In this document: piece by piece, positions 18,618-25,410 of the stretch
How positions within the stretch are numbered: position 1 is the stretch's first letter
Layout: the number at the start of each line of letters is the position of its first letter
From: Clostridia bacterium
GTDB taxonomy: Bacteria; Bacillota; Clostridia; Christensenellales; Borkfalkiaceae
Assembly (NCBI GenBank): GCA_017508105.1
Contig: JAFVZP010000008.1
Coordinates: forward strand, 1 to 37,311
Direction: 5' to 3'
DNA length: 37,311 nucleotides
Notes under the pieces: generated by a model
Told to the model about the DNA's origin: nothing
Seen by the model: only the letters and a program-made list of their open reading frames with translations
Database searches by the model: none
Position numbers and translations under genes: made by a program

Positions 18618-19631
18618 ATGGCAAACGTAAAAGTTGCAATCAACGGCTTTGGCCGTATCGGCAGATTGGCATTCAGACAGATGTTCGAAGCACCCGGTTA
18701 TGAAGTCGTTGCGATTAACGACCTCACCGACCCTAAAATGCTTGCACACCTCTTGAAGTATGACTCTGCACAAGGCAGATATAAGTATGCTGACAAGGTA
18801 AGCTGTACCGACCATTCCATCATCGTTAACGGCACCGAAATCGAAATCTATGCTGAAAAAGACGCTAACAACTGCCCTTGGGCTAAGCACAACGTAGACG
18901 TTGTTTTGGAATGCACCGGCTTCTACTGCTCCGAAGAAAAGTCCATGGCTCACATCAACGCAGGCGCAAAGAAGGTTGTTGTTTCCGCTCCCGCAGGCAA
19001 GATGAAGACCGTTGTTTACTCCGTAAACGAAGACATCTTGACCAAGGACGACAAAATCATCTCCGCTGCATCTTGCACCACCAACTGCTTGGCTCCCATG
19101 GCTAACGCTTTGAACAAGCTCTGCAAAATTCAAAAGGGCTACATGACCACCATCCACGCTTACACCGGCGACCAAATGGTTCTCGACGGTACCCACAGAA
19201 AGGGTGACTTGCGCCGTGCTCGTGCCGCTGCTGCTAACATCGTTCCCAACTCCACGGGCGCTGCAAAGGCAATCGGCTTGGTTATCCCCGAACTCGACGG
19301 CGTATTGGACGGCTGCGCACAACGCGTACCCGTACCCACCGGCTCCTTGACCCAGCTCGTAGCTATCTGCCAAGGCGAAGTTGACGCTGCAACCGTAAAC
19401 GCTGCTATGAAGGCTGCTTCTTCCGCATCCTTCGGCTACACCGAAGAAGAACTCGTTTCTTCCGACATCATCGGTATCACCTTCGGTTCCTTGTTCGATG
19501 CAACCCAGACCAAGTGCATGCCCGTAGGCGACGGCACCACCCTCGTAAAGGTAGTTTCCTGGTACGACAACGAAAACTCCTACACCAGCCAAATGGTTAG
19601 AACCATTAAGCACTTCGCTGAACTCAACTAA
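18618..19631 (+). CDS. gap: Glyceraldehyde-3-phosphate dehydrogenase, type I
   Basis: Oxidises and phosphorylates glyceraldehyde 3-phosphate to 1,3-bisphosphoglycerate with reduction of NAD+. The 337-residue protein has the Rossmann motif [14 protein letters not shown], an acidic residue after the second strand (AINDLTD) favouring NAD+, the active site [10 protein letters not shown] with catalytic Cys, the general-base His in [10 protein letters not shown], the [12 protein letters not shown] phosphate site and the C-terminal [15 protein letters not shown] precedes the start. Codon use is strongly biased, as in fba. A terminator follows directly. Confidence 0.97.
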
Positions 19632-19794: not shown

Positions 19795-20175
19795 TTGCTC
19801 GACAGACGAACGGCGCTTTTATTACAAAAGATAAACTTGCTGTGCGTAGACGGGAGTTATAAAATTTTAGAAAAGGACGAGCTGCTCTCTGCCTTTCCCG
19901 CATACTTGCCGCAGGGCGAGGAGGGGTTGGCTGCCATGCTGCAATATTTAAAGGAGCACGAGTATATCGACGTGCGCTATGCCGATAAGGAGCGCGGCGT
20001 ATACTGTCTGTACCCCTTGCCGGCAGGGAGATTATACGCCGAAAGCGTCACCAACGAGCAAGCCAAAGAGGCGCGCGAGCTGAAAAGAATTTTGCTTGCA
20101 GCCTTTTTAAGTGCCTTCGTGGGTTCTACACTCGGCGCGGGCATGGTAGCGCTCTTTTTTGCGCTCCTCGTTTAA
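19795..20175 (+). CDS. Small winged-helix-like protein with C-terminal membrane anchor (A)
   Basis: A 126-residue protein I do not recognise. The TTG start at 19795 is supported by AGAGGGG eight bases upstream. Residues 5-80 look like a winged helix: helices with a KILEKDELLSAF stretch, then AAMLQYLKEHEYIDVRY and a charged wing (ADKERG) followed by CLYPLPAGRLYAE. A charged linker leads to one hydrophobic segment (about 101-126) at the extreme C-terminus, giving a tail-anchored layout with the DNA-binding-like domain in the cytoplasm. The next gene begins 5 bp later and has the same architecture. I infer a membrane-tethered regulator pair; DNA binding is not proven. Confidence 0.7.
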   Translation: MLDRRTALLLQKINLLCVDGSYKILEKDELLSAFPAYLPQGEEGLAAMLQYLKEHEYIDVRYADKERGVYCLYPLPAGRLYAESVTNEQAKEARELKRILLAAFLSAFVGSTLGAGMVALFFALLV

Positions 20176-20180
20176 AAGCT

Positions 20181-20540
20181 ATGCTGAATTTAAAAGAACG
20201 CCGCATCATGAACGCCGTCTACGAGCTGTGCGAGGGCGCAGGCAGCTGTCTGTGCGCCCCTTGGGATATTCTCGCGAGAATCGAAAAAAAGCAACGCTTT
20301 GACGAAGCGACGCTGGAAAAAATTTTACACGATCTGCAATCGGACGGCTATCTCGATTTAATCCGTTCGGAGCGCAAGGGCGACCCCGTGTACGTCATCA
20401 CGCTGCGCGCAAACGGTTATGCCTATCAAAGGCAAAATCTGTTCTTTAAGCGCAATTTTTATTTAAAAATCGCTTGGACGGTGGGCGGCGCCGTGCTCTC
20501 CTTTCTCATCGGACTTTTGTTGCGTTCTTTTTTTTCTTAA
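20181..20540 (+). CDS. Small winged-helix-like protein with C-terminal membrane anchor (B)
   Basis: A 119-residue protein with the same plan as its upstream neighbour: an N-terminal helical domain (LKERRIMNAVYELCEG; PWDILARIEK), then LEKILHDLQSDGYLDLIRS, a charged wing and YVITLRANGYAY, and one hydrophobic segment (about 96-115) near the C-terminus. The L-x6-L spacing followed by Y-[IL]-D and a charged turn is shared by both proteins, so they are probably diverged duplicates. It begins 5 bp after the stop of gene A and has no ribosome binding site of its own, so translation is likely coupled. Function unknown. Not a member of the uvrB operon, which has its own promoter. Confidence 0.7.
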   Translation: MLNLKERRIMNAVYELCEGAGSCLCAPWDILARIEKKQRFDEATLEKILHDLQSDGYLDLIRSERKGDPVYVITLRANGYAYQRQNLFFKRNFYLKIAWTVGGAVLSFLIGLLLRSFFS

Positions 20541-20544
20541 ACGA

Positions 20545-20573
20545 TTGTTTTTTTATAAATAAAGTGATATAAT
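20545..20573 (+). promoter_or_regulatory. Promoter of uvrB-uvrA
   Basis: TTGTTT (20545-20550), 17-bp spacer, perfect TATAAT (20568-20573), about 40 bp before the ATG. I see no LexA-type (Bacillus GAAC-N4-GTTC) box over it. Confidence 0.65.
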
Positions 20574-20613: not shown

Positions 20614-22569
20614 ATGCAATTTCAATTACGCTCCAAATTTCAGCCAACGGGCGACCAGCCTCAAGCCATTCAAAAACTCACCGAAGGGGTTTTGGACGGC
20701 ATTCGCACGCAGGTATTGGTCGGCGTTACGGGCAGCGGTAAAACGTTTACCATGGCAAACGTCATTCAAAACGTAAACAAGCCCACGCTGGTCATTGCGC
20801 ACAACAAAACCTTGGCGGCGCAGCTTTGCAACGAGTTCCGTGAATTCTTCCCAGAAAACCGAGTGGAGTATTTCGTCTCCTATTACGACTATTACCAACC
20901 CGAAAGCTACATTCCCTCCACCGATACCTACATTGAAAAGGATTTGAGCCTGAACGATGAAATCGATAAGCTCCGCAACTCCACCACCTGTTCGCTCGGC
21001 GAGCGCGAGGACGTCATCGTCGTATCCTCGGTGTCCTGCATTTACGGCTTGGGTGCGCCCGAGGAATATTTTAAGCTGTCCATCTCCCTGCGCCCCGGCG
21101 ATACTATCGAGCGGGATGAGCTCATGCGTCGGCTGGTCGAGCTGCAATACTCCCGCAACGACGTGGACTTCAAGCGCGCCACCTTCCGCGCGAGGGGGGA
21201 TATTTTGGAAATCTTCCCCGCCTCCAACTCGGAAATCGCCATTCGCGTGGAGTTTTTCGGCGACGAAATCGACCGCCTGTTCGAGGAGGACGCCTTGACG
21301 GGTAAAATTGTCAACGAGCTCAAGCACGCCGTCATCTTTCCCGCCAGTCATTACGCCGTGGGCAGCGAGCGGTTGGGCTCGGCGCTCTCGGTCATTGCGC
21401 AGGATTTAAACGACGAAGTCAAGGCGTTTGAAGCCGAGGGCAAGCTGTTGGAAGCTCAACGCCTCGCCCAACGCACCAATCACGATTTGGAGATGATTCG
21501 GGAAATCGGCTATTGCTCGGGCATCGAAAATTACAGCCGTTATTTCGACGGCAGAAGTCCGGGCGAGCCGTCCTTCACGCTGTTGGACTATTTCCCCAAG
21601 GGCAACTTTTTGGTGTTTATCGACGAGAGCCACATGACCATTCCGCAAATCCGCGCCATGTACCACGGCGATTTATCCCGCAAAACCAACCTCGTCAACT
21701 ACGGCTTCCGTATGCGCTCGGCGTACGACAACCGACCCTTGAAGTTTGAGGAATTTGATGCAAGGGTACCCCAACTCATCTGTGTATCCGCCACGCCTGC
21801 CCCCTACGAATTGAATGAGGCGGGCAACGTCGTCGAGCAGTTAATCCGTCCCACGGGGCTGTTGGACCCCGTCGTAACCGTCAAGCCCACCCGAGGGCAG
21901 ATTGACGACTTACTCTCGGAAATCAACCTCGTCACCTCGGGCATGGGTAGGGTATTAGTGACTACCTTGACCAAGCGCATGAGCGAGGAATTAACCGATT
22001 ATTTAAAGGAACACGGCGTAAAAGTCAAGTATATGCACTCGGATATCGACGCTCTGGAGCGCATCGACATTATCAACGGACTGCGCAGCGGCGAGTTCGA
22101 CGTGCTCTGCGGCATCAACCTTCTGCGCGAGGGGCTGGACTTACCCGAAGTCAAGCTGGTTGCCATTTTAGACGCCGACAAAGAGGGTTTTTTGCGCAGC
22201 GATACGGCGTTGGTGCAGACCATCGGGCGCGCGGCGAGAAACAGCGAGGGGCGGGTCATCATGTACGCCGACACGGTCACGGGCTCCATGCAGCGTGCCA
22301 TCGGCGAAACCGAGCGCAGGCGTAAAATCCAGCACGAATACAATCAGGCGCACGGCATCGTGCCCAAAACCATCATCAAGGAAGTCAAGTCCACACTCAA
22401 CATCACCAAGAAAAAGAAAGCGGGCGAGGGGCTTGCAACCAAGGATATCCCTGCGGAAATCGAGAAATTAAAGGCGCTCATGAAGGTTGCTTCGGCGCAG
22501 CTCGACTTTGAGCGCGCCATTGAAATCCGTGACGCCATCGCAGCCCTGCGCGCAAGGCTGCGGCGATAG
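20614..22569 (+). CDS. uvrB: Excinuclease ABC subunit B
   Basis: Damage-verifying helicase-like subunit of nucleotide excision repair, which receives damaged DNA from UvrA and recruits UvrC. The 651 residues show Walker A GVTGSGKT (37-44), the beta-hairpin region [17 protein letters not shown] used to clamp DNA, the DESH box ([12 protein letters not shown]), helicase motifs V and VI ([26 protein letters not shown]) and the C-terminal UVR domain ([20 protein letters not shown]) that binds UvrA/UvrC. Length is normal. AAGGGAAG precedes the ATG. It forms an operon with uvrA 24 bp downstream. Confidence 0.97.

Positions 22570-22593: not shown

Positions 22594-25410
<2,817 letters not shown>

Follow-up and report, generated by a model that had tools for sequence, protein, structure and literature searches.

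Two adjacent small genes in a Clostridia bacterium of the family Borkfalkiaceae encode products of one plan, a winged-helix-like domain followed by a hydrophobic C-terminal helix, and the question that the locus raises is what such a pair might do at the membrane. The window, by which we mean the whole stretch of 37,311 nt that was analyzed, is contig 34 in a 1.16 Mb draft genome. The genes, here called A and B, are preceded by a gene (18618–19631) that, from its sequence, we take to encode glyceraldehyde-3-phosphate dehydrogenase. The earlier note had described a tandem pair spaced by 5 bp, and both open reading frames are present with that spacing; judged from the sequence, the TTG start of A has a good ribosome site (AGAGGGG).

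19795–20175, forward strand: gene A, predicted tail-anchored winged-helix protein, 126 amino acids; TTG start behind AGAGGGG (open reading frame list)
19795–20019, forward strand: A winged-helix domain, residues 1–75, net acidic (AlphaFold2 model; charge count)
20089–20172, forward strand: A predicted membrane helix, about residues 99–126, with stacked small-xxx-small positions (alignment, hydropathy)
20181–20540, forward strand: gene B, predicted tail-anchored winged-helix protein, 119 amino acids; ATG start (open reading frame list)
20181–20408, forward strand: B winged-helix domain, residues 1–76, with a conserved wing S-x-R-[KR]-G-[ED] (AlphaFold2 model; alignment)
20463–20522, forward strand: B predicted membrane helix, about residues 95–114 (AlphaFold2, hydropathy)

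A and B are diverged winged-helix proteins

Conservation of both proteins across tens of genomes shows that A and B are not chance open reading frames. Neither matched a curated family in Pfam, NCBIfam, PHROG or PADLOC; the Pfam search gave nothing for A and, as the best hit of B, PF24101 at an E-value of 0.16, below the cut-off. None of the 30 B and 28 A family members matched a MarR or PadR model at E 0.01, and matches of the members to other curated families were isolated and weak. The profiles of A and B are homologous to each other over the domain (hhalign probability 99, 84 columns, 18% identity); by this comparison the two proteins are distant paralogues. The L-x6-L and Y-[IL]-D motif that the earlier note had read as shared occurs in both. 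The charged wing that it had also assigned to both does not hold for A, which has a neutral or acidic wing with conservation centered on Y-x-D ... [YF]-C-[LV]; the conserved S-x-R-[KR]-G-[ED] belongs to B. The pair represents an unannotated family of acidic winged helices, predicted to be tail-anchored, from one order of uncultured gut bacteria.

Single-chain AlphaFold2 models, together with comparison with the PDB, support the proposed winged helix in both proteins. Each is modeled as helix-strand-helix-helix-strand-strand followed by one long helix (residues 76–125 in A and 77–118 in B) that contains the hydrophobic stretch, with a mean pLDDT of 94.4 for A (28 homologues in the alignment) and 84.9 for B (30 homologues). 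Alignment A1 omits L028, whose A has a long insertion, and L030, which is a cross-match to B; alignment A2 omits four weaker B matches lacking a locus and the second match of genome G054. The nearest solved structures are MarR- and PadR-type regulators, at modest scores (VIA-align Z about 8–10, Foldseek E about 1e-3), and the B sequence profile matched FabT at E 0.0012. Winged helices of cohesin/MukBEF were considered as relatives of B and set aside, as they were tied with many others among its fold matches. A viral structure library returned only general winged-helix matches for A. In family f16, A reaches about 258 amino acids through a long, charged, coiled-coil-like insertion between the winged helix and the membrane helix (L172:7464-8240, L028).

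A single predicted membrane helix ends each protein

A single C-terminal membrane helix had been proposed for both proteins, and hydropathy agrees: the best 19-residue Kyte-Doolittle mean averages 2.23 in the A family and likewise in the B family, and the hydrophobic core is followed by only 0–8 residues in A (28 sequences) and 1–11 in B (30 sequences). As a prediction, this anatomy of a domain with a tail helix is solid. The segment ahead of the helix is basic (mean charge +2.8 in A, +3.6 in B), so the N-terminal soluble domain is probably cytoplasmic. The helices differ in their small residues. A GxxxG motif is present in 24 of the 28 A homologues versus 2 of the 30 B homologues, and position 110 of the A helix is G, A or S in all 28, with small residues spaced by four.

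The recognition surface is acidic

We compared net charges with those of PadR domains from relatives, a control set of the 11 among 30 fetched loci that could be parsed, with positions chosen by pattern and the 19 lacking a pattern-found domain dropped. The mean for the winged-helix domain was −4.8 in A, −1.5 in B and +2.0 in the PadR domains; for the recognition helix, −1.2, −1.6 and +0.6; and for the wing, −1.1, −1.7 and +3.1, respectively. With slightly different boundaries the B domain gave −1.0 and the wings −0.5 (A) and −0.2 (B). Thus, neither A nor B has the basic recognition helix and wing of a MarR/PadR regulator. The net negative charge of both elements in the two families lowers the likelihood of a standard DNA-binding regulator. 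The case against ordinary DNA reading is stronger for A than for B, since the wing tip of B keeps conserved basic residues.

A is found only with B

Single-sequence searches of 61 relatives found A in 29 and B in 34. Profile searches of 200 genomes of the order containing Borkfalkiaceae detected B in 86 (88 before removal of G121 and G136, whose matches were weak and partial) and A in 84; 112 of the 200 matched neither gene. Named relatives that carry B are, for example, Candidatus Borkfalkia, Coproplasma and Scatosoma. Spread beyond the order was considered; in 391 genomes of the class, matches came from just 13 genomes of the order, besides two that were partial and marginal.

The earlier note expected the two genes to co-occur. 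This stands from the side of A, as all 84 genomes with A also have B, and fails from the side of B, which occurs without A in about 20 Borkfalkiaceae genomes. In G117 and G177, B was detected but A was not. In a contig scan (best 80 of 186), A lay directly upstream of B at 58 of 80 loci. Among the other 22, L116 is cut by a contig end and has its A on another contig; whole-genome searches for A in the 22 genomes, that of L116 included, otherwise returned B itself or nothing (G238, G245), with an additional partial match at a contig end in G237 that could be a cut A. The 21 B loci without an adjoining A (L116 excluded) form one clade in the B tree, so that A was probably lost once, in this B-only clade. 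Positions 99, 103 and 107 of the B membrane helix are shifted there; since three control clades also shift 2–3 helix positions, it is only suggestive that the B helix compensates for the loss of A.

Family f28, with small genomes, keeps both genes; most of its genomes have them split, usually in divergent orientation, at distances of up to about 20 kb. A there lies tail to tail with a putative RadC/JAB-like gene (L179:8765-9478, L180, L181, L183).

The pair is linked to uvrBA in ten families

A survey of conserved neighbors had been proposed in the earlier note, and it revealed what that note had not noticed: uvrB lies beyond B. The following features adjoin the pair in the window.

20539–20550, forward strand: LexA/SOS-box-like AAACGATTGTTT over the B stop codon, with counterparts between B and uvrB in Borkfalkiaceae relatives
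20545–20573, forward strand: possible uvrB promoter, TTGTTT, 17 nt, extended −10 TGaTATAAT (by eye; unlisted by the promoter scan)
20614–22569, forward strand: uvrB, conserved downstream neighbor (open reading frame list, family match)
22594–25410, forward strand: uvrA, a name that we assume from its sequence and conserved order (open reading frame list)

Among the 86 B genomes, 62 have uvrB downstream on the same strand at a distance of up to 400 nt, and 7 more have it at 0.5–1.1 kb; this linkage (69/86) spans ten of the twelve families that carry B. In 16, uvrB is elsewhere or outside the fetched stretch (all 10 genomes of f19, 1 of f20 and 5 of one f1 genus), and the stretch from G125 ends too soon to place it. 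Positions missing from the UvrB-family search list were checked on the fetched loci. In several families the B stop and the uvrB start abut or overlap (L177, L178, L185, L171); the uvrB ATG comes immediately after the B stop in L177, and the overlap in L185 is 4 nt. We regard this neighborhood, a feature of gene order, as the strongest functional lead; through gene order it ties the family to a universal repair pathway.

All 200 genomes of the order have a UvrB-family match (183 over the cut-off), including the 112 without the pair, which means that excision repair in general can do without it. Because uvrA has further conserved neighbors as well (clusters c19 and c5), with gene order also conserved beyond it, general synteny could explain the linkage. 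For the heterodimer that the earlier note suggested, a mirror-tree analysis gave A-B partial correlations given UvrB of about zero (−0.14 and 0.09), that is, nothing beyond the species signal. The idea that the pair replaces Mfd was discarded, as an Mfd-family match is present in 200/200 genomes. In the Coproplasma-like clade, A-B is flanked on one side by an RqcH/NFACT gene plus the gene of a small membrane protein and on the other by that of a large protein matching no family, with Rnf genes beyond (L118:9229-9573, L122:10489-11787).

uvrB seems to have its own SOS promoter in Borkfalkiaceae

We examined 59 loci, the window included, in which uvrB was recognized by a simple pattern (range L061-L140). 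A box of the form [AG]AAC[AG]nnn[AG]TT[CT] lies near the −10 element between B and uvrB in 55 of them. In the remaining four (the window and the three relatives nearest to it), AAACGATTGTTT or GAACAATTGTTT lies over the B stop, with flanks that escape the pattern. Counted in the window alone, the box pattern is not significant (3 found versus 1.4 expected). Upstream of lexA in this genome lies GAACGAATGTTT (L204:1415), and the boxes at lexA and at the uvrB promoter give a usable SOS-box consensus for Borkfalkiaceae. On these motifs, uvrBA seems to have its own SOS promoter in Borkfalkiaceae and A-B is probably made from a separate one; given an SOS-type promoter of its own, uvrBA need not be co-regulated with A-B in this family.

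Membership of A-B in the SOS regulon was rejected: xAACnnnnGTTx occurred less than 200 nt upstream of A in 1 of 20 loci of other families (L185, AAACAATGGTTT). So was an operator common to the A and uvrB promoters; none was seen by eye, and the site between B and uvrB, the sole conserved motif noticed there, is the SOS-type box. Ahead of A, inspection by eye showed promoter-like sequence but no conserved repeat. Farther upstream than the A promoter, a AATAATAAAGTATATTT-like stretch is conserved (L064-L099), possibly as part of a divergent acyl-CoA synthetase promoter.

A second DNA-repair gene adjoins the pair in family f19

In f19, a 103-amino-acid alkyltransferase (PF01035) with a PCHR site is encoded directly before A in 6 of 10 genomes (L174:7603-7914; also L175, L205, L207, L209 and L210) and about 1.5 kb upstream in 2; it was not found in the fetched stretch of the other 2. 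Alkyltransferase-like proteins that bind UvrA and UvrC mostly have tryptophan in place of this cysteine (PMC10779285). As the PCHR cysteine is kept, the f19 protein looks like a true O6-alkylguanine-DNA alkyltransferase rather than the UvrA/UvrC-binding type, and the parallel is limited to both concerning guanine-alkylation repair. The linkage is confined to one family-level lineage.

Discussion

What could a pair of winged helices in the membrane be for? Our preferred reading, which we hold tentatively and at somewhat less than an even chance, is a membrane-embedded docking pair that serves excision repair, the link to repair coming from gene neighborhood only. A and B would be diverged MarR/PadR-like winged-helix copies turned tail-anchored, with the domain facing the cytoplasm and the last helix continuing into the membrane. 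Their acidic recognition surface would have given up DNA reading for protein docking, and the glycine-rich A helix may pack within the membrane, either against B or against another A helix. B, the only one of the two that one clade retains, would be the core part and A, not seen without B, an accessory. The docked client would be the excision-repair machinery encoded at the same locus, UvrB and perhaps UvrA, and the pair would keep damage-repair complexes at the membrane or regulate them there. What speaks for this client is that the gene linkage extends over ten families and that f19 offers a second context with a repair gene. A narrower form, in which the pair is a dedicated membrane anchor for nucleotide excision repair and B, with A, recruits UvrB/UvrA and in f19 also the O6-alkylguanine alkyltransferase to the inner membrane, strikes us as unlikely.

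The position beside uvrBA might instead be ancestral synteny without functional meaning, the pair being a membrane-embedded winged-helix scaffold or regulator whose client, for example envelope or division proteins, lies outside DNA repair. This we consider somewhat doubtful and yet a serious possibility: 16 of the 86 genomes, including the Coproplasma-like clade, have the pair apart from uvrB, uvrB appears to have its own promoter in Borkfalkiaceae, and gene order is conserved past uvrA too, whereas the abutting or overlapping B and uvrB genes of several families and the f19 alkyltransferase point back to repair. Of the options in the earlier note, a role unrelated to DNA is the favored one, and a membrane-bound regulator is weakened by the acidic surface and the lack of an outside sensor domain. 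A one-component regulator pair of the ToxR/CadC/ArnR kind, which would sense through the membrane helix and bind DNA near the membrane, draws on the fold, with MarR and PadR structures nearest, on the basic wing-tip motif kept in B and on the precedent of ArnR/ArnR1, paralogous membrane HTH regulators (PMC13286277). We judge it improbable, however, since both families have a net negative charge in the recognition helix and the wing, no domain lies outside, and neither the B-uvrB interval, with its SOS-like box, nor the region upstream of A offers a further conserved site to the eye. The small adjoining genes and their patchy distribution might also suggest a minor accessory pair of another kind, toxin-antitoxin-like or phage-derived, for example. 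This is very improbable: a defense, plasmid or phage origin found no match in PADLOC or, for B, in 72,556 plasmid and 50,697 phage records, the chromosomal context is stable over ten families, and one clade keeps B alone without A.

Whether excision repair is organized at the membrane is itself disputed; a 2016 single-molecule study in E. coli cites a 1997 report of Uvr recruitment to the membrane, for which it saw no evidence of its own (PMC5007444). Should the pair dock Uvr proteins, it would offer a natural anchor with which to test the question directly. A literature search combining uvrB with winged-helix, transmembrane, operon and hypothetical protein gave no paper, and others turned up nothing about the A-B pair.

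The claim that no characterized system has this layout was too strong. ArnR and ArnR1 of Sulfolobus are two paralogous transmembrane proteins with an N-terminal HTH, a plan also predicted for A and B; they target archaellum promoters and undergo phosphorylation by kinases (PMC13286277), and the comparison is one of descriptions only. ToxR/CadC-like receptors likewise join a cytoplasmic winged helix to a single membrane helix (PMC5430869), as predicted for A and B. Besides an OmpR-type domain, these receptors possess a periplasmic sensor domain, whereas A and B stop right after the membrane helix, with 0–11 residues past the hydrophobic core in 58 aligned sequences and thus no periplasmic sensor. 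The MarR/PadR regulators FabT, BpsR, MepR and LmrR share the fold of the soluble domain, but A and B differ in the predicted membrane nature of the C-terminal helix, the acidic recognition helix and wing, and the absence of a Pfam match. The same genome encodes a PadR plus membrane protein (L249:1255-2769), which resembles A and B in having a winged helix with hydrophobic helices and differs in its genuine PadR match, its 504-amino-acid open reading frame, its long linker and, by eye, about four C-terminal hydrophobic helices. PadR matches in long open reading frames recur in related genomes.
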